Source: Pedobacter sp. D749 (GTDB lineage Bacteria; Bacteroidota; Bacteroidia; Sphingobacteriales; Sphingobacteriaceae). Taken from it: 64,000 nt of DNA. The translations under genes were made by a program, and so were the position numbers. Of this stretch, positions 28,111-56,241 are shown piece after piece. Where the stretch lies: assembly GCF_019317285.1 (NCBI RefSeq), contig NZ_CP079218.1, forward strand, positions 1,612,001 through 1,676,000, given 5' to 3'. The notes under the pieces were generated by a model, which saw only the letters and a program-made list of their open reading frames with translations, was not told where the DNA came from and searched no databases. Each line of letters opens with the position of its first letter. Position 1 is the first letter of the stretch.

Positions 28111-28120
28111 TTTATAGTAA

Positions 28121-30001
28121 ATGTGCGGTATAACCGGTGTTTTTGATTTCCAGTCGAGAGGCGTCGACGAACAAGTTGTAATTTCAATGGCCAGATCGCT
28201 GAATCATCGAGGACCTGATGATGAATCATTTTTTTTCGATAAAAATTGTGGATTGGGATTCAAACGGCTGAGTATAATTGATATTAAACATGGTCAACAG
28301 CCTTTTCGCAGCAGTGATGGCTCAGTTATCCTGATCTGCAATGGCGAAATTTTTAATTACAAAGAATTACGTAATGAGTTGACCTTAAAAGGATACGAAT
28401 TTAAGTCGGACTGTGATGTAGAGGTAATTTTGCATGCCTATCTGGAATACGGAACGAGATTTATCAAACGATTGAACGGACAATTTGCTTTTGTTATTTA
28501 CGATAGCAGGAACCGATCACTATTATTAGCAAGAGATCATTTCGGAATATGCCCGTTGTTTTATGCGAGCATAGGTGATTGCCTGATTTTTGGTTCAGAA
28601 ATCAAGGCATTGTTAAAATTTCCTGCATTAAAGCGAGAGGTAGATCTTAACGGTCTTGATCAAATTCTCACACTTCCAGGATTAGTAAGTCCGGCAACCA
28701 TGTTCAAAAATGTTAAAAGTGTTAAGCCCGGACATTTGATCATTGCTAAAAATCATGAGTTTGTTCAGCAGGAATACTGGGATGTTAATTATCCTGATGC
28801 TGTTCAAGGCCAGGTAACAACCAAGCCTGAGGAATATTATATCGAAAAGCTGGAGGATCTGTTATTGAAATCAGTAAGCTACAGATTAAACGCTGATGTT
28901 CCGATCGGTTACTACCTGAGCGGGGGACTGGATTCTTCATTGATTGCTGGTCTGATTAAGAAAATTAAGCCGCAGAATCAATTTGATTCTTTCTCCATAA
29001 GTTTTCCTGATGCCGATGAAAAACAAATCGACGAAAGCTTTTATCAAAGACTGATGTCTGGTCATGTGGGTTCAAATCATCATGAGGTCGAGTTTCGCTC
29101 CTCTGATATTTATGATAATCTGAAAAAAGCAGTCTTTTGCGCGGAAAGCCCGCTAAAGGAAACATATAATACCTGTAGCCTAGCGCTATCCGCCAATGTG
29201 AATCGCGAGAAAATTAAGGTAATCTTGTCTGGAGAAGGCGCGGATGAATTATTCGGCGGGTATGTGGGTTATAAACTGGATGCCCTTAAATCGCCCGGTC
29301 TTCCCGGTGATAATCTGGAGGAGTTGATGGAAGAGCAATATAGGCTACGAATGTGGGGGGATCCCAATTTTTTCTATGAAAAAAATTACTACGATTTTGC
29401 CCAACAGAAAAGAAGCCTGTATTCGGAAGCCGTGAATTACATAATGCCTGAATTTGATTGTACATTTAATCTGAGCATTGATAAAGATAAGTTGAAAGGT
29501 AGGAGTGACTTCGATAAAAGGTCTTATTTGGATTTGAAAGTTCGCTTGGCAGACCATTTAATGGCTGATCATTGTGACAGAACATCTTATGCCAACTCGA
29601 TTGAAGGAAGATACCCTTTTCTTGATATAAATATTATGGATTTTTTGGCTGAAATGCCATTGTCAGTAAAGTTGAAGGGTTTAAATGAAAAATATATTCT
29701 TAAAGTCCTTGCAAAAAAGTATGTGCCGGAACAGATTTGTAGACGAGAGAAATTTAGCTTCGTCGCACCCGGGAGTCCTTCGATCCTGGCGGACAACATT
29801 GAATGGGTTAATGACCTTTTATCTTATGATATGATTAAAAGGCAGGGATATTTCAATCCTGATACCATTGAGAAATTAAAGAAAATATATACACGGAAAG
29901 ATTTTAAATTAAATCTTCCATTTGATACAGATTTATTGATCACGGTCCTTACGTTCAATATTTTTTTAACACTATTCGATATGCCTGATTTTTCAGGATA
30001 G
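28121..30001 (+). CDS. asnB: Asparagine synthetase (glutamine-hydrolysing)
   Basis: 626 residues, class II glutamine amidotransferase type. After Met1 the nucleophile Cys2 heads MCGITGVFDFQS, and RSLNHRGPDD and the ICNGEIFNYKELR loop complete the glutaminase half (1-210). The synthetase half has the ATP P-loop-like YYLSGGLDSSLIAGL (about 264-278) and LSGEGADELFGGY (about 370-382). It converts Asp to Asn with Gln and ATP. It lies between NRPS1 (10 bp gap) and NRPS2 (30 bp gap), and NRPS3 has an Asn-like A domain, so supplying Asn is the simplest role. Amidation of the finished product is an alternative used by other AsnB-like cluster enzymes. Confidence 0.93.
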   Translation: MCGITGVFDFQSRGVDEQVVISMARSLNHRGPDDESFFFDKNCGLGFKRLSIIDIKHGQQPFRSSDGSVILICNGEIFNYKELRNELTLKGYEFKSDCDVEVILHAYLEYGTRFIKRLNGQFAFVIYDSRNRSLLLARDHFGICPLFYASIGDCLIFGSEIKALLKFPALKREVDLNGLDQILTLPGLVSPATMFKNVKSVKPGHLIIAKNHEFVQQEYWDVNYPDAVQGQVTTKPEEYYIEKLEDLLLKSVSYRLNADVPIGYYLSGGLDSSLIAGLIKKIKPQNQFDSFSISFPDADEKQIDESFYQRLMSGHVGSNHHEVEFRSSDIYDNLKKAVFCAESPLKETYNTCSLALSANVNREKIKVILSGEGADELFGGYVGYKLDALKSPGLPGDNLEELMEEQYRLRMWGDPNFFYEKNYYDFAQQKRSLYSEAVNYIMPEFDCTFNLSIDKDKLKGRSDFDKRSYLDLKVRLADHLMADHCDRTSYANSIEGRYPFLDINIMDFLAEMPLSVKLKGLNEKYILKVLAKKYVPEQICRREKFSFVAPGSPSILADNIEWVNDLLSYDMIKRQGYFNPDTIEKLKKIYTRKDFKLNLPFDTDLLITVLTFNIFLTLFDMPDFSG

Positions 30002-30031
30002 GTATTCTTTTTAAAATTAAGATCACATTTT

Positions 30032-33000
30032 ATGCATCATAAATTGATTCACGAAGTTTTTCGTCAGGTCGCAATAGACTATCCGAATTTAACAGCAATA
30101 GAAGAGGATTTAAATATTGTCACTTATGCGGAACTGGATGCAAGATCAGATAAACTTTCAGCAGTTTTAAGCGCTCAGACAAATAAGATGGGACGCGTAA
30201 TTGCTGTCTTTTTACCAAAAGGGATAGATCTGGTTACAGCAATCCTTGCCATATTCAAATCGGGAACTATTTATTTACCACTAGATCTGAATTTTCCTTT
30301 AAAAAGGATTACAGAAATACTCAATGAACTTGATGTGGATGGAATCATCACCACAGAAGAATCAAGGTCTGAGATTGAAAAAATTGCACTGGAAAATTCT
30401 GTTCACATTAACGAAATTTTTACTTTTGATAACTCCTGTTCAATAAACATTTATAACCAAACTGCTCGCGGTTTCGAACGTTGCGATGAGGCAACCTATG
30501 TTCCTGAAAATTCAAAAAATATTGTTGATCCGGATAGTGGCTGTTATATCTTTTACACTTCAGGCTCTACCGGTGTTGGTAAACCTATCCTAGGGAGGCA
30601 TAAGAGTCTGCATCACTTTATAAATTGGGAAATAAAAGAATTTGAACTTGACCATAATTGCAGGGTAAGTCATTTGATTCAAAAAACGTTCGATCCTTCT
30701 TTACGTGATATTTTCGTGCCTTTGTGTTCAGGTGGGACACTTTGTGTTCCATCGGTTGCTATAGTGTCCAACCCAATATTATTATTGAAGTGGCTGAAAC
30801 AGGCTTCAATTACTTTAGTACACTATGTGCCTTCCTTATTTAAGACTTTGACCAGAGAGCTTGAGGTAATGTCAGGCGAGGAGTGTTCTTTTCCTGCATT
30901 AAAATTTATGCTCTTGTCAGGTGAAATACTTTATTCAACGGATCTGAAAAAATGGTGGGATAATACTGAATCAAATACAGAGTTTGTCAATCTCTATGGG
31001 CCGACTGAAACCACGTTGGCGAAGATGTTTCACCGGATTAAAGCAATATCAGGCACAACTGCACAGATTCTACCGGTTGGTAGGCCGATAAATGACACGC
31101 ATGTAGCGATAATAAACGAGGCCAATCAAATTTGCGGTGTGGGGGAGATTGGCGAGATTTATATTAAAACCTCTTTTATTTCTTTAGGATATTATCGGAA
31201 CAAAGACTTGACACGAGCTGTTTTTGTACAAAATCCTTTAATCAAGGACAAGGCAGATATCGTTTATAAGACTGGTGATCTTGGGAAATACCTTGAAGAT
31301 CGGAATATCCAGGTTATGGGGCGTTTAGATGACCAGGTTAAGTTAAATGGCGTTCGGATTGATCTGAAAGAAATAGAACTGTCAGTTATAAAGTTGCATG
31401 AGGTAGAATCTGCGGTAATTATAGCTGATAGAGACCAGGAAAATCAAATTTCTTTAATTTGTTATTTTATAGGAGAATCCGCTAACGAAGAGTTGTTAAG
31501 ATCCCATTTAAAAAATGAAGTTGGTGCTAGTATGGTTCCCTCATACTTTGTTAAATTAGTTGATTTTCCGCTTAACTTAAATGGAAAAGTTGATAAAAAA
31601 GCACTTTTAAAGCTTTTTAAGATTGATGAAAGTAAACTTCAATACGAACCTGCAGAAGGCACAACAGAGGTAAGATTAGCGGAGATTTGGAAAAAAATTC
31701 TGGGTGTATCCAAAGTCAGTCGAAATGCTTCTTTTTTTAAAATAGGAGGACATTCGCTAAAGGCCTTACAGCTCATTTCAGCAATTTACAAAGAGTTCAA
31801 CATCAATTTGAGTATTTCAGAACTTTTCAAAAAGCCTATACTGGCTGAATTGGCTAATTTGATTGATCATAGCCAGCTATTTGAGTATTCAGATATATCG
31901 CATATTCCGGATTCTGTTTATTATGATTTGTCACATTCACAGCGTCGTTTGTGGGCGCTGAGCCACCAACCTGGTTCAGGTCTGGCCTATAACCTAGTTG
32001 GGACGCATGTTTTGGAAGGTGATCTTGATGTGGAAGCCTTCCGACGTGCCTTTGGGGAAGTAGTTTCCCGTCACGAGATTCTTCGGACAGGTTTCCATGA
32101 GGTATCCGGGGAACCTGTTCAACAGGTTGAGCCCTTTTCATCGATGGGCTTTTCTGTGGTTTACAGGGATTTGCGCGGATTATCGGAGGATTCCGTGGAA
32201 CTCCAGGAGATTATCCGTGAAGAGGTATCAAAGCCTTTTGATTTATCGGAGGCCGGACTGTTGCGTTCACAGTTGCTGCATCTGTCAGCCGACCGTTATC
32301 TGTTTGTATTTACGATGCATCATATCATTTCCGATGGCTGGTCGATGCGTGTATTGCTCAAAGAAGTATCGGTACTTTATCTTTACTATAAGAAAGGTGG
32401 TGCTTACCCTTTGGCTGAGCTCAGGCTTCAATACCGTGATTATGCGCGTTGGCAGGTCCAGGAGCTGGCCGATCCGGCCCACCGCTCCCGTGCCTACTGG
32501 AAAGAGCAGTTTTCGGGGCAGCTTCCCTTACTTTCGGTTCGCGGTGATAAGTCACGGCCTGTACAGAAGAGTTATAATGGTTCCCGAGAGCACTTTATGA
32601 TCGGTGCGGATGTTTCCGATGGTCTGAGCATGCTGAGCCGTTCCCATGACAGCACACTTTATATGGGTGTACTGACATCTCTTTATATCCTGTTGTATAA
32701 ATACAGCCATCAGCGTGATATCATCATCGGTACGCCTGTTTCTGGCCGTTCTCACCGGGACCTTGAAGAGCAGATCGGTTTTTATGTGAATACACTGGCA
32801 TTGCGGATGCAGTTTGAAGAAAGCTGGAGCTATATCGGCCTGTTACGCCGTGTAAAAGAACGGTGCCTGGAAGCTTTTGCCCATGACCAATATCCATTTG
32901 ACTGTTTATTGGAAGACCTGTCTCTGGTCCGGGATCCGGGCCGTAGTCCGTTGTTTGATGTGATGCTCACCTTTGAAGGTTCGGGTTCTTCGGAAGAAAT

Positions 33001-41306: not shown

Positions 41307-44300
41307 ATGGACATTGCCATAATCGGTATTTCTTGCCGCGTTCCCGAAGCGGAGTCACCAGATGTTTTTTATCAAAATCTTGCAGCAGGGAAAGATAGTG
41401 TTCGGGTATTCTCGAAAAAGCGCCTAAGAAGTACCACAATCGCTGATGACGAGAATTATCAGTTAAATGGTTTTATCGAAGATATTGATTTTTTTGACCA
41501 TGAATTCTTCGGAATATCTTTAGGTGAAGCGCAGCAAATGTCTCCTCAGCATCGTATGATGTTGGAAGTTGCCTATGAAACTATTGAAAATTCTGGCTAT
41601 AGCATAGATTATTTTGACGGCTCTAATACCTCGGTTTTTATCGCGGCGTCTGGAATCGACTATTATTTGCATGCAGAAAAATTCGATCCTATGTTAACCA
41701 CTGGCAACCTAAGTGCGATAGTAGCCGGTAGAATTTCAAGGTTTTTCAATTTCCGTGGCAATTCAGTAGTTATTGACACATCTTGCTCATCATCATTGAC
41801 AGCCGTTCATCATGCTTGTAACGATTTGATACTTGGAGAATCAAGCTGCGCACTCGTTGGTGGCGTTAGCCTAAATCTTTTCCCGCCCGTAATCAATGAT
41901 CAGTATGACATGGGGATAAGCTCGGCGGATGGAAAAGCCAAAGCTTTCTCTGCTGAAGCCAATGGAACAGTTCCAGGTGAAGCTGTTTGCTGTCTGCTAT
42001 TAAAACCCTTGGTGGAAGCGATTAAATCAGGTGATATTATCCATGCAGTAATTAAATCAACTGCTGTAAATCAGGATGCCAATCGATCCGGTAGTTTAAC
42101 AGCTCCAAGCAGTACTGCTCAAGCTGAAGTTATTCAGAAAGCTTGGGAAAAAGCAAAAATAGATCCAAGTACTATAACCTATATAGAAGCACATGGGACA
42201 GGAACGAAACTGGGAGATCCAATAGAAATTCAAGGGATTGACAGCGCATTTCGCAAGCATACTGACAAAATCGGCTTTTGTGCTGTGTCATCGGTTAAAA
42301 CAAATATTGGACATACGGATTGCGCAGCTGGAATTGTTGGTTTACTCAAGGCGACACTTTCCCTTAAATACAAAGTATTGCTTCCGTCTCTGCACTTTAA
42401 TTCACCAAATCCGTTTATCAATTTTGAGAATTCATCTGTGTATGTTAACACTACATTGAAAAACTGGGATGTGGGAAAAACTGGGGTTAGACGGGCTGGC
42501 GTTAGTTCATTCGGACTATCAGGTACAAATTGCCATGTCGTTTTAGAGGAGTACGATGGCGGACTGAAGGTTTTACCAAGCCAAACAAATAAGAGTGAGT
42601 TATTTGTTTTTTCAGCTAGAACGGAGCGGGCACTGCGACGGATTATCAAAAGATTTTCGGATAAACTTATAGATACACCCGGTTTATTCTTGAACGATCT
42701 TGCTTATACATTGGCTGTTGGCAAAAAGCATTTTAACTGCAGATTATCGTTTGTTGTTAAGGACCGAACATCGCTGTTGAAAGTTTTGGAAGATTTTAGT
42801 GCATCAAATGAGGTATTCCACTGGAAAATCGATGTAGCGACAGTCGCTGTATTTTCGCCGGATTTAAATATAAGTGAAAAATTTATAGCCACTTACAGTA
42901 ACAGATATGCGATTTTCCGCGATTCTATGGAAGAATGTGAGAAGGCATACGGTGAAAATAGACAGACTGAAGAATTCAGAAAGTTCGCTTTTCAATACAG
43001 CTTTTATAAACTATTGCTTTCACTTGGAGTAAAAGCGAAATACCTCATCGGTGTCGGTATTGGGCAATATGTAGTAGAAGTCATTAGCGGGCGTCAATTA
43101 CTGACGGAGGTTTTACCAGCAATACTTATTGATAGTTTAGATCATAGCGATATAGAAGGGAGATGCAAAAAAATACTCGAAAAATTCGAATCACAGTCAG
43201 TTGTTTTTATTGAGATCGGGAAATTGGGTTTGATCTCAAAACAGTTGCAATCATTAATCGAAAGAAATCCTGATGTGGAAGTAACTGCATTGAAAGCGGC
43301 CATGGATGAAGATGGTTTGAATGACTATATCAGTGAACTATACAGATTTGGGTTTGATATAGACTGGGGTTGTTATTATTCTGGTAGTACGGCCCGGCGT
43401 GTAGAAGTTCCTGTTTATCCCTTTGAACGTGTGCGTTGCTGGATCAGGGAAGCCTTACCCACGCGTGTCCACAACTGGTTTCATGAATTGGTTTGGGATG
43501 CTGCCGAAGCTAAAGGTTTTACTGGAGTTACTGGGAACAGTTATGTGATCATCATGGACGAACTTGGTTTAGGTTTGGGATTGATATCCGCCCTACGTTT
43601 GGCCGGGAACGAATGTATTACGGTAAGTCGTGGTAAGCGATACGAGATGGAGTCTGCTGGTGCATATATTATAGATCCGGAAGAAGAATCGTGTTATGAA
43701 CAGCTTTATGAGGATTTACGTACCATGACTAAACTGACGGGGATCATAGATTTATCGGGATATCGTAAGGTTGAAGCTGGCACGGAGGCCCAGGCCGTTA
43801 AGTATTTGTACTCGCAGGTATACCTGGCCAAATATTTTAGCGGTCATCTGTGTCGTAAGGGCTTTGAATATGTACAGGTAAGCAGTAATGGTTACCGTAT
43901 CGGTACAGGAGATGATCCGGTTTTAGCTATCCACACTGCAGGCAGTTGTTTTTTAAAGGGCGTATTATCAGAATATACAGGTTTAAAAGCACGTGGCATA
44001 GATGTAGACATTTATACAGAGCATGTATCGGATGCCATCGGTTATGTGTTTAAAGAACTGGGAACGGAAGATAACATAAAGTTTGTTGGCTACCGTTTGG
44101 GTAAACGTTATGTTCAGCAATTTAAGAAAGTGGCGGCTCCTGAGCTGCACCAGTCATCCGTACCGGTTATCCGTTCGGGAGGTGTTTACCTAGTTACTGG
44201 GGGTGCCAGCGGTATCGGACTGGAAATAAGCAAGTCTTTATCAAGAGTATCAGGTGTCAGGCTGATCATTCTGGGGCAGACCTTCTTACCGGTCAAAGCG

Positions 44301-46940
44301 CAGTGGAATGATACCTCAGACCTTAGCCCTGTGGAACAGGAGCGGATCTCGGCCTTGAAATCACTGGAAGCATCAGGCGCCTTGGTAGATTATTATGGTC
44401 TTGATATGCGTGAAGAAGCGGCGATGTCTGTAACATTTGAGAAAATAAGACAGACGACGGTTAAGCTGGATGGGATCATACATTCCGCAGGTGTTGGTAT
44501 AAGCGGTTATAGTTTGTCAGAACAGACAAATTCAGAAATAGACAGTATCCTGGGCCCAAAGATCTATGGGACTTATTTTCTGGATAAGTACAGCCGGGAA
44601 CTGCATCCGGATTTTTTAGTGATGTTCAGTTCTTTGAACTCCCTGGTTCCTAAAAGGCGGAGTGCAGTTTATGCAGCTGCTAACGGTTATCAGGATGGTT
44701 ATTGTAATTATTCTGGTTATCAGGGGACAAAATTTATCGGGATCAACTGGCCTGGCTGGTCAGAGTGTGGTATGGGCGCGCGGGGTTTGGGCGGATCAGC
44801 ACCTGAAAACACGGGCGAAGATGTGCTGAAGCATATAACAACGGGTGATGGTATAGATAGTTTCTATGCCTTATTGGATATGGGCCGTGCTAACACAGCG
44901 GTAGCAGAAGTAGATATCACCGGATTTAAGATAAACCCGTTTTTCAGCGTGGGAAATGAAGTTGTGCTGAATCCTTCAGTGTCAATGGGCTTATCCCCAT
45001 CTGCGGGGGAAGGTTCCGGGCCGGATGAGGCTTTAACAATCAGTGGTTTAAGTCAGGCTGAATCCAGGGTTCATATGGTTTGGCAGGAGATACTGAAAGC
45101 AGAAACCATATCGGTGGATTCAGATTTTTTCGAGATGGGTGGCCATTCATTGAATGGCAGCCAGGTAATTAATCGTCTAGAGAAGCTTTTTGAGGTAGAG
45201 CTGGAATTTGAGGATTTGTTTGAATACCCAACGATTCGTTCATTGTCAGCATATATAGAACAATTGCAGTCAGCGGGCGATATGACTGAATATTCAGATA
45301 TAGCGCATATTCCGGATTCCGTTTATTATGATTTGTCACATTCACAAAAGGGCATTTGGATATCGGACCAATTTGAGAACGCTCAAGCTGCTTACAATAT
45401 TCCAAGTGCTTACCTATTAAAAGGCATTTTGAATATAGATGCGATCAGTCGGTCATTTGAGATGGTAGTGTTGCGATATGAAATTCTTCGAACGGGATTT
45501 GAAGTTGTTGATGGTGAACCAAAACAAAGAGTGAAAAATCTCCTTGAATCAGGCTTTAAAGTAGAAGTTAAAGACCTGACCAACCAATCTTTTAACGAAA
45601 CACAGTTGAATAAGTTGATTCTGGAAGAATTCTGGAAGCCTTTTGAACTTGAATCCACACCATTATTGCGAGTTAACATCGTTCGATTGGACCATGAAAA
45701 AAATGCCCTTTTCTTTACCTTACATCATATTATATCTGACAACTGGTCTATGGATATTTTTATAGGGGAAGTTGCAAAGTATTATAATGAGTACGTTGCT
45801 GGCAAGATCTTACAGACCACACCAATGAGATTACAATACCGTGATTTTGTTAATTGGCAAAATAGCCAAATCAGTAACGGTGATTCGATCATGCGAAAAT
45901 ATTGGTTAGAAAATATGGGTGGAGTAATTCCTGTCTTGAACCTTCCGCTCGATTACAATCGGCCCTTGAGAAAGACAATCGATGGGAGCAGTATTATTTT
46001 TTCTTTGGATGTGGAATTGGTAACGAAAATAAAGAAAACATGTAAGGAACAGGAAATTAGTCTGTTTATGTTTTTAGTAGCCGGTATCAATTGCTTGTTA
46101 TACAAATACACAGGCCAATGTGACATCATTGTAGGTACGCCTACTGCTGGCCGGACACATAAAGATTTAGAAGATCAAATAGGGTTATTTATCAATACAA
46201 TACCACTCCGGACAAGGTTTGATCCAACGAACGATACTATTGAAAAATTTCTAGCAAATATTAAACAAACTATCCTTGGGGCATTTAAGCATCAGTTATA
46301 TCCATTGAATAAATTGGTTAATGAGTTAAACATAACCAGAGATTTAAGCCGTTCGCCTCTCTTTGATGTAATGATTACTCTTTATAATAAGGAATCGGAA
46401 AGGGATCAGAAACCACAATTGAAAGACATTATAATTGATGAATTGAAATTGGAGATAGCCCACAGTCCAATGGAACTGTCAATTGATTTTACAGAAAATG
46501 ATGGTTCAATAATCGCAGAAGTTCAATACAATACCAATTTATTCAGTCAGAAAAGGATCGGGAAAATAGAAAGTCAGCTTAAAAAAATAATTGCTTGCTT
46601 TACAAATGAAGTCAAAGCAAAGATTAATGAAATCAATATCCTCTCCGCTAAAGAAAGTGTTATCGCCGGTGTGTGGGCACGCCATTTGGGAATAACGGTA
46701 GAATCGATTTGGGTAGATAATGATTTCTTCGAACTGGGTGCTACCGATCTGATTGCAAGTGAAATAATTAGCGAAATCAATCAAGTTTGTGATATTGATC
46801 TAACCTTGGGAGATTTAAAGTCACATCCTACAATCTTTAAGCTCTGTAATTACATCGAGGAAATACGGGAAACCGATGCTACAATCGTAATTGATACTCA
46901 GCAACTGAGAAATTATAGAGTGGATAAATCCACTCTATAA
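41307..46940 (+). CDS. PKS-NRPS hybrid: KS-AT(dead)-KR-ACP-C-PCP(dead)
   Basis: 1,877 residues. KS (1-425) has DTSCSSS (Cys about 160), EAHGTG (His 296) and KTNIGH (His 336), all intact. A 435-705 acyltransferase-like region ends with VPVYPFERVRCW, but its GHSxG site reads GVGIGQY (582-588), so Ser is missing and it should be inactive; malonyl must be loaded in trans. KR (725-1220) has TGGASGIG (964), MFSSLNS and YAAANGY (1122). ACP has GGHSL (Ser 1281). C (1339-1760) has HHIISDN (1473). The last carrier-like domain reads ELGATDLIA: the phosphopantetheine Ser is Asp1814. The net reaction would add a ketide, reduce it to a beta-hydroxy unit and condense the next amino acid. A 23-bp hairpin spans the stop codon. 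The KR-ACP part is GC-richer than the KS. Confidence 0.95.
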   Translation: MDIAIIGISCRVPEAESPDVFYQNLAAGKDSVRVFSKKRLRSTTIADDENYQLNGFIEDIDFFDHEFFGISLGEAQQMSPQHRMMLEVAYETIENSGYSIDYFDGSNTSVFIAASGIDYYLHAEKFDPMLTTGNLSAIVAGRISRFFNFRGNSVVIDTSCSSSLTAVHHACNDLILGESSCALVGGVSLNLFPPVINDQYDMGISSADGKAKAFSAEANGTVPGEAVCCLLLKPLVEAIKSGDIIHAVIKSTAVNQDANRSGSLTAPSSTAQAEVIQKAWEKAKIDPSTITYIEAHGTGTKLGDPIEIQGIDSAFRKHTDKIGFCAVSSVKTNIGHTDCAAGIVGLLKATLSLKYKVLLPSLHFNSPNPFINFENSSVYVNTTLKNWDVGKTGVRRAGVSSFGLSGTNCHVVLEEYDGGLKVLPSQTNKSELFVFSARTERALRRIIKRFSDKLIDTPGLFLNDLAYTLAVGKKHFNCRLSFVVKDRTSLLKVLEDFSASNEVFHWKIDVATVAVFSPDLNISEKFIATYSNRYAIFRDSMEECEKAYGENRQTEEFRKFAFQYSFYKLLLSLGVKAKYLIGVGIGQYVVEVISGRQLLTEVLPAILIDSLDHSDIEGRCKKILEKFESQSVVFIEIGKLGLISKQLQSLIERNPDVEVTALKAAMDEDGLNDYISELYRFGFDIDWGCYYSGSTARRVEVPVYPFERVRCWIREALPTRVHNWFHELVWDAAEAKGFTGVTGNSYVIIMDELGLGLGLISALRLAGNECITVSRGKRYEMESAGAYIIDPEEESCYEQLYEDLRTMTKLTGIIDLSGYRKVEAGTEAQAVKYLYSQVYLAKYFSGHLCRKGFEYVQVSSNGYRIGTGDDPVLAIHTAGSCFLKGVLSEYTGLKARGIDVDIYTEHVSDAIGYVFKELGTEDNIKFVGYRLGKRYVQQFKKVAAPELHQSSVPVIRSGGVYLVTGGASGIGLEISKSLSRVSGVRLIILGQTFLPVKAQWNDTSDLSPVEQERISALKSLEASGALVDYYGLDMREEAAMSVTFEKIRQTTVKLDGIIHSAGVGISGYSLSEQTNSEIDSILGPKIYGTYFLDKYSRELHPDFLVMFSSLNSLVPKRRSAVYAAANGYQDGYCNYSGYQGTKFIGINWPGWSECGMGARGLGGSAPENTGEDVLKHITTGDGIDSFYALLDMGRANTAVAEVDITGFKINPFFSVGNEVVLNPSVSMGLSPSAGEGSGPDEALTISGLSQAESRVHMVWQEILKAETISVDSDFFEMGGHSLNGSQVINRLEKLFEVELEFEDLFEYPTIRSLSAYIEQLQSAGDMTEYSDIAHIPDSVYYDLSHSQKGIWISDQFENAQAAYNIPSAYLLKGILNIDAISRSFEMVVLRYEILRTGFEVVDGEPKQRVKNLLESGFKVEVKDLTNQSFNETQLNKLILEEFWKPFELESTPLLRVNIVRLDHEKNALFFTLHHIISDNWSMDIFIGEVAKYYNEYVAGKILQTTPMRLQYRDFVNWQNSQISNGDSIMRKYWLENMGGVIPVLNLPLDYNRPLRKTIDGSSIIFSLDVELVTKIKKTCKEQEISLFMFLVAGINCLLYKYTGQCDIIVGTPTAGRTHKDLEDQIGLFINTIPLRTRFDPTNDTIEKFLANIKQTILGAFKHQLYPLNKLVNELNITRDLSRSPLFDVMITLYNKESERDQKPQLKDIIIDELKLEIAHSPMELSIDFTENDGSIIAEVQYNTNLFSQKRIGKIESQLKKIIACFTNEVKAKINEINILSAKESVIAGVWARHLGITVESIWVDNDFFELGATDLIASEIISEINQVCDIDLTLGDLKSHPTIFKLCNYIEEIRETDATIVIDTQQLRNYRVDKSTL
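45291..45346 (+). repeat. 56-nt seam repeat, copy 2 (ACP-C linker of the PKS-NRPS gene)
   Basis: Matches 31886-31941 with 2 differences. It encodes YSDIAHIPDSVYYDLSHS. Right of this point the gene returns to AT-rich codon use. Confidence 0.9.
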
Positions 46941-46951
46941 TTTCTCAGTTG
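46902..46951 (+). promoter_or_regulatory. Perfect 23-bp hairpin over the stop codon of the PKS-NRPS gene
   Basis: The 23 bases at 46902-46924 and those at 46929-46951 are exact reverse complements around the loop taaa. The TAA stop (46938-46940) lies in the right arm. The following DNA (gaaatattcttc) is not a T-tract. It may be a terminator or pause site that needs antitermination to read through, or an mRNA-processing or stability element. Confidence 0.75.
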
Positions 46952-47058
46952 AAATATTCTTCTAGCTAGTTATAATATTCAGGCGAAGTCGTGTAGCGGC
47001 AAATGCCAGGCTTATAATTGTCTTTTAAATTTTTTTAGAAATCACTAATCGAATAATC
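46941..47058. other. Intercistronic gap before the aminotransferase gene
   Basis: A 118-bp gap, wider than most in the operon, that contains the right end of the stop-codon hairpin and no gene. An internal promoter is possible (several T-rich runs), but no TAnnTTTG match was found. Confidence 0.5.
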
Positions 47059-48468
47059 ATGTTTGAAACTTATCATTTGGGCCAAGGGGCATCCATAGTG
47101 ACAGCAGTACCCGGAGCAAGATCACGTGCCTTATTAGCACTTCAACAACAAATTGAAGGACGAATAGTTTCTTATCCGATCGGACTTCCTATCGCAATAA
47201 AAAATGCTAAGGGGGCGATTGTGCAGGATGTTGATGGAAATCGATTTATCGATTTTTTTTCTGGTGCAGGCGTTTTAAACGTTGGTCACTGCAACCCAGA
47301 TGTTTTGTCATATGTTGAGGAACAGCAAAAGGAGCTTATTCATATGCTTGATTTTCCTACCGAAAATAAACTGGAGTTCATCAACAGTATATTATCTTTT
47401 TTTCCAGAAAACACTCGAGGGGAATTTAAAGTTAGTTTTTGCGGACCCACAGGTTCTGATGGTGTGGAAGCAGCAATAAAACTGGCAAAACACAAAACAG
47501 GGCGTAGTGCAATTATCGCATTTCAGGGCTCCTATCACGGTATGACAGCAGGTGCATTATCCCTTACCAGCAATACAAGGTTAAGAGAGAAATTTGGTTC
47601 ACTTGTACCTGACGTTAGCTTTATTCCGTATAGTTATTGTTACCGATGTCCATACAACAAAAACGAGGAAAGCTGCCAACTCGATTGTGCAGGATATCTT
47701 GAAACACTTTTAAATAATCCCCATTCAGGATTCAGCAAGCCGGCGGCAATCATCTTGGAGCCAATTCAAGGTGAAGGAGGAACTATTGTTCCCAAGGATG
47801 GTTTTCTCGAACGGATAATTAAGATCGCCAGAAAAAATGACATTTTAGTAATTTTTGATGAAGTGCAGTGCGGTTTTTTTAGAACGGGTAAGTTTCTTGA
47901 GTCTTTAAAACTCAAAACTCTTCCCGACATTTTGGTCATGTCAAAGGGGCTGGGCGGTATAGGATTTCCAATATCAGCCATCATATATAATAAAACCATA
48001 GAGTCTTGGGATGCAGGCGATCATATAGGCACTTTCAGAGGAAATCAGGTAAGTATCGCAGCTGGAAGAGGTGCCTTGGCCTTTGTAAAGCAAAATAATC
48101 TGGAGGAACATACCCTCAAAATGGGAAGATACCTGATCAACAAACTTAAGGAAATTTGTACTTGGAATCCCTACCTAGGTGAAGTTCGTGGAAGTGGTTT
48201 GATTATCGGAATTGAATATGTAAAAGATAAAAAAACTAAGGAGCCTTATCCTGAACTGGTTAAAGAACTCAAAAAAATAAGTTTTGAAAATGGTCTGCTG
48301 TTTGAAATCGGTGGACATTTCAATAATGTCATCCGATTTCTACCTCCATTGATCATAAACGAAGAAATTATAGAAAATGCAATGCAGATATTCGAATTGG
48401 CCAATAGAGCTGTGCTGAAATTAAAGAACGAAGGTCAATTGAATTTACCTATTGAGAAAGCTGATTAG
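47059..48468 (+). CDS. Class III PLP aminotransferase, diaminobutyrate-synthase-like
   Basis: 469 residues, fold type I aminotransferase of the EctB/Dat type. Motifs include IDFFSGAGVLNVGHCNPDV near the N-terminus, GPTGSDGVEAAIKLAK for cofactor phosphate, FQGSYHGMTAGALSLT, LEPIQGEGG, the PLP-ring Asp in VIFDEVQCGFFRTGK and the Schiff-base Lys in VMSKGLGGIGFP. The YRCPYN...CQLDCAGYLE segment also occurs in L-2,4-diaminobutyrate:2-oxoglutarate aminotransferases. That enzyme makes Dab from aspartate semialdehyde and Glu. Dab is a common building block of cationic lipopeptides, and NRPS1 A1 has an acidic Glu239 suited to a cationic residue. The Dab assignment is likely but not certain; a related omega-aminotransferase is the alternative. 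Confidence 0.82.
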   Translation: MFETYHLGQGASIVTAVPGARSRALLALQQQIEGRIVSYPIGLPIAIKNAKGAIVQDVDGNRFIDFFSGAGVLNVGHCNPDVLSYVEEQQKELIHMLDFPTENKLEFINSILSFFPENTRGEFKVSFCGPTGSDGVEAAIKLAKHKTGRSAIIAFQGSYHGMTAGALSLTSNTRLREKFGSLVPDVSFIPYSYCYRCPYNKNEESCQLDCAGYLETLLNNPHSGFSKPAAIILEPIQGEGGTIVPKDGFLERIIKIARKNDILVIFDEVQCGFFRTGKFLESLKLKTLPDILVMSKGLGGIGFPISAIIYNKTIESWDAGDHIGTFRGNQVSIAAGRGALAFVKQNNLEEHTLKMGRYLINKLKEICTWNPYLGEVRGSGLIIGIEYVKDKKTKEPYPELVKELKKISFENGLLFEIGGHFNNVIRFLPPLIINEEIIENAMQIFELANRAVLKLKNEGQLNLPIEKAD

Positions 48469-48504
48469 AAAATTTGCCAACGTCCGTACCTTCTAAACTT
48501 GTTA

Positions 48505-51500
48505 ATGACTATGAATGAAGTGAAGAAAAAATATTTTGAAACGTCTTTGTTACAGCAAAATGAGCTCGCAGGCGCCATAGTGAATCAAGGTTATATAGAT
48601 AAAAATCAACCTCTGTTTATTTACATTGATGAAGATATTAATTACAACAAGCTATGCTTGGCCGTCAATGAATTAATAGCCCGGCATGAGCTGTTGAGGA
48701 CGGGCTTTAAAGTTGGACAAAATAAATTTAAATTGTATTTGCTGGATGAATACGTGTACGAGTTGACTGATAATTCGAAGGAAATATCAACGCTGGAATA
48801 TTTGAAAAAGCTAGCAGATAAAAGAAAATTCTGTTCGGAGGATTTTCCACTATTTGATTTTGGCTTACACAAAATCGGGAAAAAACAATTTGTATTACTC
48901 TTCAATAAGCCGGCTTTTATTTCAGATGCAATTTCGGATGGGATATTAATGTCGGAGCTGGAAAAAATATACAAAGACCAGCAACTACCTAAAATAGCCT
49001 TTCAACATCTTGATTTCTTATTATGGCAGAACGATTTCATCAAGACTGAAAAGGGCGAAAAAGCTAAAGACTCATTAAAAAGGTTATTAGCAACTCAAAC
49101 TACTGATTTTTTCCAACCAGAAGATATTGATTGTCCTAATGAAATCTCTTGTGGCTTAAACGATCCGTTAAATATCAGCATAAATTTATTGGAAAAAATC
49201 ACCCTTTATACTTCAAAACATAAGATAAATGTAGATGATTTTTTGTTATCAGTTTGGTATGTTTTTTTGCAAAAATACACCAGAAATGATCATGTTTTAG
49301 TTAACTGTGTGAAGTCATGTCGCGAGGCAGACTGGAAACAAGTTAGTGGAAATTTCGAAAATGTCTTTCCAATGTCTAGGTCGATCAATAAAAATGACCG
49401 GTTCATTGATTTTTGCATAAACGTAAACAGAAATGCTGTTATTCTGGATAAGTACAAATATTATCCTTCGGAGGGATTAAAAATGATGGGCGACCAGTAT
49501 GAAGATGAAAACAAAAATACTGGTATGGGTTTTATATTTTGCGCCGAAGTTAACCAGCAGACTCGCTGGATAGATCTGCATTCTCACCTTGGGACTTCAT
49601 TGCTTAAACGCTGTAATTTTAATTTAAAGATTGTTGCACAAAAGGATGAGCTAAATATTTATTTGATAAACAGTACAAAGAAATTTTCTACGGACGCTGT
49701 TAATCGGATCAAAGACTGCATTTCAACGATAATTACATCAGTTCTTGATGAGGAACATATTTTGATTAGAGATGTTGATTTTACCAGTGAATCTGAAAAA
49801 AAACGGTTGTTATATAAATTTAATGAACCTTACCAGGATTTAGGCGAAATAAAGCCTATCCACGTCTTGTTTGAAGAACAGGCAACGTTATTTCCTGACA
49901 CTACCGCGGTGATCCATAATGACTATAACTTATCTTATCAGGAACTCAATCAAAAATCAAATAAACTTGCTCACTTGCTTATTAGCTTAGGTGTTCAACG
50001 TAAAGAATTTGTGGGTGTGTTCTTAGACAGAAGTTTCGATCTACTGAGTTCGATGTTAGCGATATTTAAATCGGGAGCATCCTATGTGCCCTTTGATAAA
50101 CAAAATCCGGTTGAACGGTCTAAGTTTTTGATCGATAATAGTAATGCAAAGATTTTATTCACAGATAGTGATACTGTAAGAAATAATGACTGGCTTATCC
50201 TTGATTTGCCCCATATTGATTATATAATCTGCATTGATGAATTAAAATCTGATTATGGAAGTCTATCACCCAGAAGTAAAACTACAATCATTGATTGTTT
50301 AAGTTATAGTAACTTGTCTACTGATAACCCAGAAAATGTCAATTCAATTGACGATTGGTCTTATATGTTATATACATCGGGTTCTACAGGCGATCCGAAA
50401 GGTGCAATTCTAACACATCAGGGGGCAGTCAATCACATCTATGCGGAATATAAGTTTTTGAACTTAGCACAGGGGTTTAAATTTCTTCAAAGTGCAAATA
50501 TTTCATCTGACATATCCGTTTGGCAATACTTAGCACCATTATTACATGGTGGTACAGTAATCATCATAGATCAAGTCGATCTTCTTGACTTCAATAATCT
50601 AATTTCAATTCTAAATAAAACTGAAGTCACCCTTGCAGAGTTTGTTCCATCGTATTTAAACGCTTTTTTGGATTTTGTTGAAAGTTCAGGGACAACGTCA
50701 AAAACAGAACTGTTTTATTTACAAAGTATCATGATGACAGGTGAAGAGTTACCTGTTGAATTAGTTGGACGCTGGAAGAAATTTACCAGCTCAATTAAAC
50801 TAATTAATGCTTACGGACCCTGCGAAGCCTCTGATGATATTACTCAATACCTGATAGATGATACCTTTGACCCCCGTTCCAAAAGGGTTCCGATCGGGAA
50901 ACCTTTAGCAAATTTGAATCTGTTCGTATTAGATGAGAATGTGAAGCTTCTGCCAATTGGCTTTACTGGAGAAATTTACGTCTCAGGCATAGGTGTAGGG
51001 GAAGGGTACTGGAAGGATATTAAAAAGACGTTATCAAAATTCATCCCGAACCCGTTTCCTGACACATTGGGTGAAATAATGTATCGGACTGGTGATTTAG
51101 GAAGATGGAAAGCTGATGGAAATTTGGAATTTTTAGGAAGAATAGATCATCAGGCACAGATCCGTGGCAACCGGGTTGAGACAGCGGAGATTGATCATCT
51201 TCTTGGCCAACACCATCACATAGTTGAGGGTATAACCGGAATTAAAAAAGACAATAACGGGCAGGAATACCTGGTAAGCTACATTATCAGAAAGCTGAAT
51301 AGTGGGGCAGGAGATGAGGAAACTTTCAGGAGCGAATTGACAATCTACCTGAAGAGATTTTTACCAAGTTTTATGGTACCCGCTTATTGGGTTTTTTTGA
51401 AGGAATTTCCTAAAAATCTTAGTGGTAAAATAGATCTTAAATTGTTAAAAGAGATTGATGAGCGGTCACTTACAGGTAGTTATGTTACTCCGGTAGGAGA

Positions 51501-54500
51501 TTTGGAAATAAGAATTTCTTCCATATGGGAAGCGGTGTTAAACAAGGATAAAATAAGTGTTGAAGCGAACTTTTTTCAAGTTGGGGGGCACTCATTGAAA
51601 GCTGTACAAGTAACTGCAAAGGTTTACAAAGAATTAAATGTTGTTCTAAAACTCAGAGATTTTTTTAACGCTCCAACTATAAGACAACAGGCAGAACTAA
51701 TTGCAAACGAAAAAAATCAAAATTACCAGCCTATAAATCCGATAAAAAAGAATCAATTTTACGATTTGTCTTTTGGGCAGAGAAGGTTGTGGTTGTTTCA
51801 GCAATATAAACAAACGGGGCAGGCCTATAATATGCTAAACGGTTATTCGATGACCGGCGAGCTTGATTATCATCATTTCGAAAAGGCAATCAACTATGTT
51901 ATTCTAAAGCATGAAATTTTAAGGACCAGGTTTATTACAGTGGGGGGTGAACCAAAGCAGGTCGTTGAGGAATTTGGTGGCAATTATGCTTTAGACTATG
52001 AAGATTTGCGAAACAATACAGAAGCTCATCAACACCTCGATGTTTTAGTTGATTGCATGGCTGCGTTTCAATTTGACTTGGCAACCGCGCGTTTATTCCA
52101 ATTTAAGTTGCTCGAAATGGAGGACAACAGTTACGTGTTCTTGACTTCCTTTCACCACATCATTATGGATGGCTGGTCTATTGATGTTTTTATCAAGGAA
52201 CTTGCAATATTTTATAATGATTTGTGTAGTGGCATTAAGCCTGAAGTGACACCACCACTCTTGCAGTACAAAGACATCGCGTCGTGGTCAAATGCATTAA
52301 TAAAAAATGAGTCTAATGGTGGTCATCGATCATATTGGCTAACCCAGCTGCAAGGAGAGTTGCCCCGTATTGAGCTCCCATTTGATTTTAAACGGCCCAC
52401 GAGCAAATCATATAACGGCGGATCAGTTGAGCATGTCTATGATCAGCAACAAATTTCCCTGTTGAATAATTTCTGCAGACGCGAGGGGGTTACGACTTTT
52501 ATGGTATTGCTTTCTGCGGTTAAATTGCTGTTGTTCCGGTATAGTGATCAAAAGGATCTAATAATTGGTATTCCAAGTGCCGGTCGTACTCATCCCGATA
52601 TGGAAGACCAATTGGGGTTTTATGTAAACACTTTACCAATAAGAAGTTGCGTGAAACCTTTCGAAAGCTTTAGAGAATTGCTCGATCAGGTAAAAGGAAA
52701 TATGCTTGACGCTTTCAATCATGATTTATATCCTTTTGATAAGATTGTCTCAGATTTAGAGATCGTAAATGATCAAAGCCGGACCCCTATATTCGATGTA
52801 ATGGTAACCCATCAGAAGTCACTGCTTGACCGAGAGCTGAGGTTATCGAATCTCGTGGTGGACGATTATTACATCCCTTCCAATACGAGTAAATTCGATC
52901 TTACATTTAACTTTCTGGATGATAACGACCTATTTTCATTAAACATTGTTTACAATACCGATATATTCAAAAAGGAACGGATAGTAAGTCTTCTTGGGCA
53001 CTTAACAAATCTTATCTACGCAGTTTTGGCTGATGCAGATAAGCCAATGAACGAGGTTGATTATATCGGTGAAGTAGAAAAGACCAGAATTTTAAAGGAA
53101 TTTAATCGTACTGAAACCGAATATCCCGATCAGGATTCTTTAGTATCGTTGTTTAGAAAGCAGGTGTCGAAAACCCCAACCAAAACAGTTTTGGTGTTTG
53201 AAAGTGGTAAATTAACCTATACTCAGTTTGACCTGTTAACAAATCTACTGGGGAACTATTTAGTGGAAAAGTATAATATCAACCAGGGGGATGTGGTCAG
53301 CCTTTTTATGGATCGGTCTCTTGAAATGGTTATATCCATTTGGGCCCTTCTAAAAATTGGAGCAATTTATGTACCACTTGACCCAACCTTTCCTGAAGAG
53401 CGGATATCTTATATTATTAAAGACTCGCAGGCGAAACTGATATTGACAAAAACAAAAAAAGTTTTTGAAGATTTGAATATTGACCAGTATACTGTAAATC
53501 TCGAAGTATTAGCCGCACTTTATCCCAATAAAGAGATTAGCTTTTATCCAAAACCTGAGGATGATGCTTACATCATTTATACATCAGGATCAACAGGGAA
53601 CCCCAAAGGGGTAATTATTAAACATAAAGGCATCGTTAACAGGTTAAACTGGCAGTGGTTGGAATATTCCTTTACGGATGCTGACATTGTTCTTCAAAAA
53701 ACAAATTACGTGTTCGATGTGTCCACATGGGAATTATTTTTACCGGTATGCTTTGGATGTCAAATGGTGTTATGCCCCCAAGAAGTCGTTTACGATCCGC
53801 TTAAGATGGTCCAATTTATCGATTATCATAAGATTACTAGGGTTCACTTCGTTCCAACGATGTATAATTATCTTTTGGACTCCCTCAACCTAATGGATAA
53901 GACCTGTTTGCAAAGCCTACGAAATGTCTATTGTGGTGGAGAACCGCTCTCTACCAAGTTGGTAAATAAACACTATAAAAATTTAAAAGCACAGTTATTT
54001 AATTGGTATGGACCAACTGAGGCATCTGTTGACGTAACTGCACAGCCTGTTTATGAGAATGATGAAATTATTCCTATTGGTTATCCCATACATAATACAA
54101 AACTTTATATAGTCGATACAAATTTGCAGCTAAAACCGATCGGAGTAACAGGTGAAATAGGGATATCAGGAGTTGGTTTGGCAAAGGGATATTTGAATAA
54201 CGAAGTATTGTCGAATAGTAAATTTATTGATAATCCCTACGAACCGGGGCAGAAGCTTTATTTAACCGGCGATTTGGGCTGCTGGGAACCTGATGGCGCT
54301 ATTTTATATTTTGGCAGATCGGATGACCAGGTAAAGATAAGAGGACATAGAATTGAATTAGGTGAGATCGAAAACGTATTAAAAAAAAATACAGATATTT
54401 TAGATGTTGTTGTCTTAGCTGTTGAGAACCCATCGGGAGACAAGAGTTTAACAGCGTATCTCATCAGTGAAATCGATGATATAGTTTCTAAAGCCAGAGA

Positions 54501-56241
54501 TCGCCTGCGGGCCGCATTACCGGATTACATGCATCCAGCTCAATATGTGATTTTACAGCGGTTTCCTTTGACAGCCAGCGGCAAACTCGATAAACAAGCG
54601 CTAAGCAAGATCATAGAGTTTAAAAGCCCTCAGTCTGATAAACAGCAAAGAAAAACCAGCGCATTAGAAAATACCCTATTAGAAGTCTGGAAAGATGTCT
54701 TGGGTAAACAAGATATACTGATAGATGATAATTTCTTCGAAATAGGGGGAGATTCAATAAAAGCTATCCAAATCGCAGTCCGGTTACAAAAACATAAATT
54801 TAAAATAGAAGTCAAAAATATTTTCGAACATCCATTTATTGATAAACTGGCCAATTTTATCAAACCCTTTGTGTCCACCGCTGACCAATCGATAGTGGAA
54901 GGATCTATTCTTTTGACCCCAATTCAAAGATATTTCTTTTCAAAAAAACTGCTGAATATTAATCACTATAACCAATCTGTTGTTTTGTATCACAGCAAAT
55001 TAGGTATTGATGAGGTAAAGTTCATTTTTTTAAAACTCTATCATCACCATGATGCCCTTAGGATAACTTTCCTTCAAAGCGAAAATGAGAGAATGCCGGA
55101 GCAATTCAATAGGGGGGGCGCAGGCGATATTCCCGTTCTTGAGTTTGATATCAGGGGTGATGATGATTTACCAGAATTTAAACGTATCTCGAACGACCTT
55201 CAAAAAAGTTTAAATATTTACAAGGGTGAACTATTTAAGATAGCGCTGTTTCATATGAATGATGGAGAGCGATTACTTATAATTTGCCACCATCTTATTA
55301 TCGACGGCGTTTCTTGGCGGATACTCTTAGAAGATATCACTACACTTTTCCAACAATTCCGGAAGCAGCAACAGTTACTCTTACCTGAAAAAACTGACTC
55401 ATTTAAAACCTGGTCTGAAACATTGGCACTGTATACAAAAAGTGAGAATTTTCAGAATGAAAAAGAATATTGGAACACATTAGAGGTAAATGATGGCTTT
55501 ATTTTGCCTAGAAGGATTAAGCAAGCCGGTAAGCGTAGAGATATTAAAACACTGACTTTTACGCTAGATGAGCATAAAACTACAAAACTGATCAGTAATG
55601 TAAATCAGTTTTTTGAGAGTGAGATTAACGATATTTTGTTATCTGCACTGATTATCACCTTCCAGAAATTGTTTAATGCCAAAAGCCTGTTGATCATGCT
55701 TGAAGGTCATGGTCGAGAGCCGATTTCCGATACCATTGATGTCAATAGAACAGTTGGTTGGTTTACGAGTGTTTTTCCTGTTAAATTGATTGCTGATCAA
55801 AATCGGGAGTTTAGCCAACAGATCGAAAAAGTCAAAAAAAAATTACGGTCGATCCCGAATAAAGGTATTGGATACGGTATCTTAAAGTACCTGACAGCTC
55901 CAGAGGTGATGATGAATATGCAAGCAGATATTTTGTTTAACTATTTAGGTCAATTCGATTCTGACGAATCTGACTTTCAGGTTATATCAGATTCTGCAGG
56001 ACACGAAGTTGGACAGGACGAAGCAGCTGATTATCCTTTAGAAATAACTGGGATGATTGCTGGTAAAGCTTTGCTTGTAAGTTTTAATTACGACTCTAAA
56101 CTATTTCAGGAAAACTTGATCATCGATATCCATAGAGCGTATCAGCAAACCCTGGATAATATAATATCAAATGCCACCGTAGATTTCCATCAAACACTCT
56201 CTCCGGAAGCTTTGGATCATATCAATTCATTATTTGAATAG
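48505..56241 (+). CDS. NRPS4: C(degenerate)-A-PCP-C-A-PCP-E
   Basis: About 2,578 residues from the ATG at 48505; a TTG 6 bp upstream is a less likely start. Residues 15-440 resemble a C domain but lack HHxxxDG: the equivalent site reads FNKPAFISDAIS (about 133), so it should not catalyse condensation. A1 (460-985; TSGSTGDPKG) has an odd A5 motif, GPCEASDD, and code DIWEMTADD (not assignable). PCP has GGHSL (about 1030). C2 (1085-1520) has HHIIMDG. A2 (1545-2040) has code DVWHYGWVD, which shares DVWH and final D with Ser codes. PCP (GGDSI, about 2084) and E (2130-2575; HHLIIDG, EGHGRE, VGWFTSVFP, GIGYG, FNYLGQFD) end the protein. This E is diverged from the duplicated pair. The working C for A1 is probably the one at the end of the PKS-NRPS protein. 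Confidence 0.95.
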   Translation: MTMNEVKKKYFETSLLQQNELAGAIVNQGYIDKNQPLFIYIDEDINYNKLCLAVNELIARHELLRTGFKVGQNKFKLYLLDEYVYELTDNSKEISTLEYLKKLADKRKFCSEDFPLFDFGLHKIGKKQFVLLFNKPAFISDAISDGILMSELEKIYKDQQLPKIAFQHLDFLLWQNDFIKTEKGEKAKDSLKRLLATQTTDFFQPEDIDCPNEISCGLNDPLNISINLLEKITLYTSKHKINVDDFLLSVWYVFLQKYTRNDHVLVNCVKSCREADWKQVSGNFENVFPMSRSINKNDRFIDFCINVNRNAVILDKYKYYPSEGLKMMGDQYEDENKNTGMGFIFCAEVNQQTRWIDLHSHLGTSLLKRCNFNLKIVAQKDELNIYLINSTKKFSTDAVNRIKDCISTIITSVLDEEHILIRDVDFTSESEKKRLLYKFNEPYQDLGEIKPIHVLFEEQATLFPDTTAVIHNDYNLSYQELNQKSNKLAHLLISLGVQRKEFVGVFLDRSFDLLSSMLAIFKSGASYVPFDKQNPVERSKFLIDNSNAKILFTDSDTVRNNDWLILDLPHIDYIICIDELKSDYGSLSPRSKTTIIDCLSYSNLSTDNPENVNSIDDWSYMLYTSGSTGDPKGAILTHQGAVNHIYAEYKFLNLAQGFKFLQSANISSDISVWQYLAPLLHGGTVIIIDQVDLLDFNNLISILNKTEVTLAEFVPSYLNAFLDFVESSGTTSKTELFYLQSIMMTGEELPVELVGRWKKFTSSIKLINAYGPCEASDDITQYLIDDTFDPRSKRVPIGKPLANLNLFVLDENVKLLPIGFTGEIYVSGIGVGEGYWKDIKKTLSKFIPNPFPDTLGEIMYRTGDLGRWKADGNLEFLGRIDHQAQIRGNRVETAEIDHLLGQHHHIVEGITGIKKDNNGQEYLVSYIIRKLNSGAGDEETFRSELTIYLKRFLPSFMVPAYWVFLKEFPKNLSGKIDLKLLKEIDERSLTGSYVTPVGDLEIRISSIWEAVLNKDKISVEANFFQVGGHSLKAVQVTAKVYKELNVVLKLRDFFNAPTIRQQAELIANEKNQNYQPINPIKKNQFYDLSFGQRRLWLFQQYKQTGQAYNMLNGYSMTGELDYHHFEKAINYVILKHEILRTRFITVGGEPKQVVEEFGGNYALDYEDLRNNTEAHQHLDVLVDCMAAFQFDLATARLFQFKLLEMEDNSYVFLTSFHHIIMDGWSIDVFIKELAIFYNDLCSGIKPEVTPPLLQYKDIASWSNALIKNESNGGHRSYWLTQLQGELPRIELPFDFKRPTSKSYNGGSVEHVYDQQQISLLNNFCRREGVTTFMVLLSAVKLLLFRYSDQKDLIIGIPSAGRTHPDMEDQLGFYVNTLPIRSCVKPFESFRELLDQVKGNMLDAFNHDLYPFDKIVSDLEIVNDQSRTPIFDVMVTHQKSLLDRELRLSNLVVDDYYIPSNTSKFDLTFNFLDDNDLFSLNIVYNTDIFKKERIVSLLGHLTNLIYAVLADADKPMNEVDYIGEVEKTRILKEFNRTETEYPDQDSLVSLFRKQVSKTPTKTVLVFESGKLTYTQFDLLTNLLGNYLVEKYNINQGDVVSLFMDRSLEMVISIWALLKIGAIYVPLDPTFPEERISYIIKDSQAKLILTKTKKVFEDLNIDQYTVNLEVLAALYPNKEISFYPKPEDDAYIIYTSGSTGNPKGVIIKHKGIVNRLNWQWLEYSFTDADIVLQKTNYVFDVSTWELFLPVCFGCQMVLCPQEVVYDPLKMVQFIDYHKITRVHFVPTMYNYLLDSLNLMDKTCLQSLRNVYCGGEPLSTKLVNKHYKNLKAQLFNWYGPTEASVDVTAQPVYENDEIIPIGYPIHNTKLYIVDTNLQLKPIGVTGEIGISGVGLAKGYLNNEVLSNSKFIDNPYEPGQKLYLTGDLGCWEPDGAILYFGRSDDQVKIRGHRIELGEIENVLKKNTDILDVVVLAVENPSGDKSLTAYLISEIDDIVSKARDRLRAALPDYMHPAQYVILQRFPLTASGKLDKQALSKIIEFKSPQSDKQQRKTSALENTLLEVWKDVLGKQDILIDDNFFEIGGDSIKAIQIAVRLQKHKFKIEVKNIFEHPFIDKLANFIKPFVSTADQSIVEGSILLTPIQRYFFSKKLLNINHYNQSVVLYHSKLGIDEVKFIFLKLYHHHDALRITFLQSENERMPEQFNRGGAGDIPVLEFDIRGDDDLPEFKRISNDLQKSLNIYKGELFKIALFHMNDGERLLIICHHLIIDGVSWRILLEDITTLFQQFRKQQQLLLPEKTDSFKTWSETLALYTKSENFQNEKEYWNTLEVNDGFILPRRIKQAGKRRDIKTLTFTLDEHKTTKLISNVNQFFESEINDILLSALIITFQKLFNAKSLLIMLEGHGREPISDTIDVNRTVGWFTSVFPVKLIADQNREFSQQIEKVKKKLRSIPNKGIGYGILKYLTAPEVMMNMQADILFNYLGQFDSDESDFQVISDSAGHEVGQDEAADYPLEITGMIAGKALLVSFNYDSKLFQENLIIDIHRAYQQTLDNIISNATVDFHQTLSPEALDHINSLFE

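Follow-up and report, generated by a model that had tools for sequence, protein, structure and literature searches.

Inert condensation (C) domains recur at the start of nonribosomal peptide synthetase (NRPS) subunits at junctions that divide a module between two proteins, and a junction of this layout lies in a hybrid NRPS/polyketide synthase (PKS) cluster of Pedobacter sp. D749. The window analysed here is the whole stretch of 64,000 nucleotides (G000:C1:1612001-1676000), taken from a genome of one contig (5.84 Mb). Within it, a PKS-NRPS subunit ends with a C domain followed by a peptidyl carrier protein domain without its phosphopantetheine Ser (PCP*), and the subunit NRPS4 opens with a C domain without catalytic His (C*), followed by an adenylation (A) domain and an intact PCP. 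On balance, it is probable that this is a split module, in which the C at the end of the PKS-NRPS works for the A-PCP of NRPS4, with an inert bridge between them. The features at the junction are:

41307..46940, + strand: PKS-NRPS subunit (1877 aa) with ketosynthase (KS), acyltransferase (AT)-like stretch, ketoreductase (KR), acyl carrier protein (ACP), C and dead PCP
45324..46646, + strand: upstream C domain with its two catalytic His (HHIISDN at 45723)
46653..46856, + strand: PCP*, GATDL replacing GGxSL (Asp1814, codon 46746-46748)
47059..48468, + strand: class-III aminotransferase, diaminobutyrate type (TIGR00709), between the halves of the split module
48499-56241: NRPS4 (2580 aa), C* - A - PCP - C - A - PCP - C-type domain
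48499..49830, + strand: C*, full-length condensation fold that lacks the catalytic His (PAFISDA at 48910-48930)
49879..51441, + strand: first A domain of NRPS4, code DIWEMTADD
51505..51702, + strand: first PCP of NRPS4, with an intact Ser (GGHS at 51583)

An earlier, sequence-only reading had taken the terminal PCP of the PKS-NRPS to be dead, and this was confirmed: the motif is GATDL, and the codon at 46746 is GAT (Asp1814), where carriers have the phosphopantetheine Ser. Given that GAT is at least two base changes away from every Ser codon, a single-base read error is excluded. The degenerate C domain proposed for the start of NRPS4 was also found, scoring 136.4 bits against Pfam Condensation. 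In an ungapped alignment to 2jgp, HHxxxDG corresponds to PAFISDA, with HH replaced by PA and the Asp retained; the second His of HHxxxDG, by which a catalytic condensation domain was defined, is absent. The open frame of C* extends over some 430 aa and nearly the full C profile. Its AlphaFold2 model has a mean predicted local distance difference test score (pLDDT) of 86.6 and a predicted template modelling score (pTM) of 0.88, and the top Foldseek match of this model is again 2jgp (TM-score 0.81 over the query). Both open reading frames (ORFs), PKS-NRPS and NRPS4, are well-formed as had been described, with 0 internal stops in each. The two proteins had been said to meet at a junction; the dead PCP and C* do follow in that order, but their genes are not neighbours, since the aminotransferase gene, which that reading had not mentioned, lies between them. 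The idea that C* arose by duplication of the upstream C was considered and found unsupported, as the upstream C is absent from the five best other matches. The closest other C domain in the genus survey is 27.6% identical to C*.

Split junctions in related clusters

Subunit junctions were tabulated for 23 regions, the window among them, from 15 genomes of the genus; these regions had been chosen for C-domain hits. The table also covers 31 loci found via the KS-AT part of the PKS. It omits open ends, gaps > 6 kb and the frame-broken region G027a; a Flavitalea contig start and a Pseudoalteromonas cluster stand outside it. Nineteen subunits open with an inert C, either a full-length dead C (7) or a half C (12), and the next domain is A in 17, a carrier (T) in one and a second C in one. 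The last NRPS domain of the predecessor is an intact C in 18 of these 19 cases, with TauD fused behind that C in two of them (G483, L114). The window is the remaining case, with a C and then the dead PCP. Subunits with a canonical C start (n = 38) follow predecessors ending in T (22), epimerization (E, 14), A (1) or C (1), and the sole case after C involves a stand-alone C with the motif DHISCDD. Twelve further subunits start with a bare A behind a terminal C. Away from subunit starts, the dead or half C domains were three fragments lying at sequence ends and two full domains.

Both His are absent from all seven dead C domains (the window, five others with P[AST], and L114). Five positions with a residue conserved across 218 active C domains (Arg, Asp, Ser, Trp and Gly) are retained in 7/7, and across all 33 columns conserved in active C domains the seven keep 54%. 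The layout is also seen behind related KS modules. The window KS shares 63.0% identity with one in G483 and 57.5% with one in Flavitalea sp. BT771, and in both a subunit ends KS - ACP - C while the next opens with a full-length dead C, then A and T. In the dead C motifs HH is replaced by PS (PSIMADG in G483, PSVSVDA in Flavitalea sp. BT771), and the extra PCP is absent from both junctions. Identity to the window around these junctions is 32-37% for C and A and 22-24% for the dead C, so the junctions are alike in layout, with orthology not demonstrable.

Selection on the half-C remnants was assessed as dN/dS by Nei-Gojobori, where dS was ~1 or above in most domains and the ratios are hence rough. 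Two close genome pairs gave 0.210 (0.133-0.315) and 0.241 (0.143-0.355), indicating purifying selection; a third pair, L112/L114 (0.243, dS 2.95), was saturated and not counted. Judged by these ratios, the half-C remnants are constrained, though more loosely than working domains. The upstream subunit ends in a tail of the form [ILFV]x[FI]x[FVI] before 10 of the 12 half-C starts, compared with 2 of 136 other closed ends (examples, such as DISFNF, are at G459:C24 end 49005 and G530:C23 end 53421). This count is descriptive only, given that the pattern was defined after the tails had been viewed. Tail peptide and half C together would be the best lead to a new docking pair. Vestigial C domains, whole or C-lobe, could tentatively form a docking class of their own, in which the half C would bind the C-terminal peptide of the subunit with the working C, and the window would have recruited PCP* for its dead C. 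The features of the half-C pair (C-lobe only, tail pattern) are not those of the window, where C* is near-full and the PKS-NRPS ends in RVDKSTL. A literature search, with most subscription journals outside it, returned nothing on the window junction, half-C docking or the C-terminal peptide.

In the split-module reading that we favour, the upstream C would join the ACP-bound beta-hydroxyacyl chain to the amino acid held on the first PCP of NRPS4. This amino acid is probably diaminobutyrate, which the aminotransferase encoded between the halves would provide. C* would carry out no chemistry; its fold would be kept against the A domain, bridging to the upstream subunit in the manner of an interface or docking domain. 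PCP* should not be loadable and would be skipped. It may be what is left of a lost A-PCP half or may contribute to the contact with C*, the relic being slightly the likelier. A docking function is plausible from the sequences compared, with support for the junctions as a class. The sequence-only proposal that the inert pair allows the upstream C to serve the A-PCP is partly supported by the recurring order (C, then inert C - A on the next protein) and by the selection on half C; for this particular pair it is a candidate reading.

Several observations weigh against this reading. The motif of the upstream C is HHIISDN, in which HH is intact and the Gly of HHxxxDG has become Asn, a change that could reduce its activity. 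A dead PCP at a split junction is unique to the window within the survey, and the predicted PCP* model is uninformative (pLDDT 31-65); the C-PCP* structure model was set aside for its low confidence over the PCP part. The end branch of C* (3.17) is the second longest in its tree. No orthologue of C* or of the junction was detected in 145 genus genomes and 395 sampled phylum genomes, nor in a scan of a contig collection that reached close relatives only. The estimable active domains of the two close pairs evolve more slowly than half C (0.029-0.165). Of the between-pair half-C comparisons (27-30% identical), one gave 0.382 (0.221-0.621) and the other no estimate, the A domains being equally poorly resolved there (0.312 or saturated). 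Finally, related clusters account for several of the 19 junctions, so that the counts are not independent.

Recombination and possible loss of A domains

The same junction could have arisen by simple loss: recombination would have deleted the A of a C-A-PCP module, the orphan PCP would then have lost its Ser, and C* would be left over, with neither domain functional. We regard this as a serious but rather unlikely account. Two other subunit starts of the cluster are also without an A domain (L040 is the locus that carries on past the window, and cluster positions there are given in continued window numbering):

window 56286-58262: NRPS5 start, C - weak A remnant of ~160 aa - PCP
L040:10482-12143: NRPS7 start, C - PCP, no A

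Both follow an E domain, and the carrier Ser is intact in both. Together with the junction, this gives the cluster three C - PCP units that lack A, which makes it plausible that recombination removed A domains. Because two other modules of the cluster are also without A, a lost module, the other option of the sequence-only reading, stays a live explanation for PCP*. The spacing is not the same throughout, as PCP* begins a few residues after its C (1780 to 1783), compared with a gap of ~47 residues at the NRPS7 start.

That the cluster recombines is evident from the downstream PKS, a mosaic of the KR-ACP tract of the PKS-NRPS (99.85% over 2013 bp) and the C-A-PCP-E tract of NRPS2 (100% over 4503 bp), the two tracts sharing a 60 bp overlap at the C start. 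GC content at third codon positions is 0.413 in the KR-ACP tract, compared with 0.32-0.36 in five neighbouring stretches. PCP* itself scores 72.0 bits with a PCP profile derived from the cluster, in keeping with a recent loss (the cluster has 16 further PCPs, one of which scores 23.0 and the remaining 15 score 75.9-94.2). Ser-less T hits numbered 2 of 306 in the survey, namely PCP* and one clipped hit (GG---) in the frame-broken region G027a. None of the other surveyed junctions of this kind has a dead PCP, which speaks for a relic. Simple decay is harder to reconcile with C*, which is open over its whole length and has a confidently predicted fold despite its far divergence. Inert N-terminal C domains also recur at this position elsewhere, including in genomes from another family, and the half-size versions are under purifying selection.

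Large near-identical repeats were located at window 31882-36384 and cluster positions 69735-74237, and at window 43334-45346 and cluster positions 67782-69794. Another repeat pair lies inside the window (25085-26706 and 34800-36421).

Comparison with interface domains

Interface-domain modules have a TauD-family beta-hydroxylase in the cluster, and the A domain after the interface domain has an Asp or His code. An interface domain of beta-hydroxylating NRPS modules is reportedly the subject of Reitz et al. 2019. The window resembles such modules in that a His-less condensation fold lies between C and A and opens a subunit that comes after one with a C at its end. It differs in the lack of a TauD match, in an A code that is not Asp-like, and in the aminotransferase gene and dead PCP that are interposed. 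C* could be a true interface domain that brings a beta-hydroxylase into position at the aminoacyl-PCP of NRPS4, like those in the modules of beta-hydroxyaspartate siderophores; we consider this improbable.

Among relatives, TauD is fused behind the upstream C, right before the dead C, in three places (G483, L114 and the Flavitalea contig); in G495, C and dead C are separated by a TauD gene. PCP* occupies the position where some relatives have a TauD domain. The A codes behind the full-length dead C domains of relatives are DLTK[VI]GH[IV]G in 5/7, a code that we take to specify Asp, and DFTKIGEVG and DAQDLGVVD in the others. In a Pseudoalteromonas luteoviolacea cluster, which we infer to be of alterobactin type, a terminal C is followed on the next subunit by a degenerate C and an A with code DITKIGHVG, and a terminal C-TauD by a degenerate C and an A with code DLTKIGHIG. 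The seven full-length dead C domains of relatives and the two Pseudoalteromonas domains form one clade (support 97/84). These nine are probably interface domains, in agreement with the domain that Reitz et al. 2019 reportedly describe.

C* shares with interface domains the condensation fold, the loss of the catalytic His pair (the first His being replaced by Pro, as in 6/7 relatives) and a position between C and A, but with PCP* and a gene interposed. Its placement relative to the clade varied. A FastTree of 260 domains put C* inside the interface clade (0.856), and a FastTree with eight more rows put it outside, as did a careful tree, on weak branches. One clade including C* was not rejected by the approximately unbiased (AU) test (p 0.477, and p 0.604 in a quick tree from which other long branches were left out). 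C* is nearer to the interface profile than all 194 held-out other C domains, whose interface-minus-canonical scores were -44.7 or lower; the canonical profile nonetheless beats the interface profile by 24.8 bits for C*, whereas 9/9 clade members favour the interface profile when left out. On these scores C* would lie between the two profiles, as any far-diverged domain might.

A gene for a CmlA-type diiron beta-hydroxylase does lie downstream in the cluster (L040:18517), which would speak for hydroxylation, but a search for TauD (PF02668) gave no match at E 1e-5 anywhere in the genome of the window. TauD is present in 15/145 genomes of the genus. The code DIWEMTADD is not Asp-like, in a comparison that did not take in His codes. 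Given these results, together with the tree and profile results, the plain label of interface domain was not adopted for C*; with no TauD match and a different A code, C* is described here as a domain that may work like an interface or docking domain.

Precursor genes, cluster setting and known systems

The aminotransferase scores 402.4 bits against TIGR00709, barely over the cut-off of 401.6. Codes resembling DIWEMTADD, which was read at the putative code positions, presumably specify diaminobutyrate; the literature search brought no confirmation of this, with no match for DIWELTAD or DIWELT. Alternatively, the PCP*-C* pair might recruit the aminotransferase, which would then act on a carrier-bound intermediate. 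The position of the gene is what speaks for this very improbable arrangement, but the enzyme matches the diaminobutyrate family, whose aminotransferases work on free substrate, and the gaps of other junctions between a terminal C and an A start hold genes for amino-acid precursors, so that supply fits better than docking. AsnB-like genes are found in 8 of the 12 bare junctions of this kind (2 by hidden Markov model, 6 by an MCGICGF start), and SbnA/SbnB in one.

The sites with AsnB-like genes between a terminal C and A - T are window 28121-30001, G459, G530, G549 (two loci), G013, G550 and G023, and the code of the A behind the gene follows the pattern D[AP]RHLS[LF][LM]. The one in the window belongs to a further split:

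26734..31600, + strand: terminal C of NRPS1, asparagine-synthase-like gene and NRPS2

Here NRPS2 opens straight with A, after the terminal C of NRPS1 and the asparagine-synthase-like gene (28121-30001). The CmlA-type diiron beta-hydroxylase gene closes the cluster (L040:18517-19998); a CmlA-type gene is also in such a gap in G549 and, judged by its start, in G550.

The hybrid cluster is mostly inside the window, and its final NRPS frame stops at contig position 1,692,581. Near its start lies an ORF of 690 aa (window 13249-15321) without a match in Pfam or NCBIfam at E 0.001, and it holds two NodU-like carbamoyltransferase genes (window 11495-13243 and 39583-41292). In the PKS-NRPS, a Pfam search for AT gave no match in the AT-like stretch, and the ACP has GGHSL at 45138. 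The last C-type domain of NRPS4 carries HHLIIDG and falls in the E clade.

The interface domain of Reitz et al. 2019 is cited in PMC12230676, and hydroxylases of this kind are treated in PMC12971057. Potashchelin PtcB ends C - TauD, and the proposed target of this appended TauD is the Asp of the neighbouring module (PMC7100376); like the window it has a domain behind the terminal C, a hydroxylase in PtcB and a dead PCP in the window. The thermoactinoamide synthetase ThdA has a truncated N-terminal C*, probably inactive (PMC7253712), which resembles the window as a remnant before A at a subunit start, but it is truncated and in a starter module, whereas the window C* is full length and follows an elongating subunit. 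The NRPS of the fmq cluster likewise holds an inert C remnant, described as a truncated and presumably inactive C*, but is fungal (PMC10212144). Truncated C domains of other kinds appear in PMC8739492 and PMC9600693. Docking domains join consecutive NRPS/PKS subunits, and within split modules they have been described for trans-AT PKS; the NRPS docking classes (COM, PAX, beta-hairpin) are short terminal elements, unlike C*, which is a whole C fold (PMC9113145).

For annotation, a dead C or dead PCP that is counted as a lost module may instead mark a module that is intact but split. The C-A border is where NRPS engineers cut and join (exchange units), and natural modules that are split at this border and still work would give ready-made connectors.

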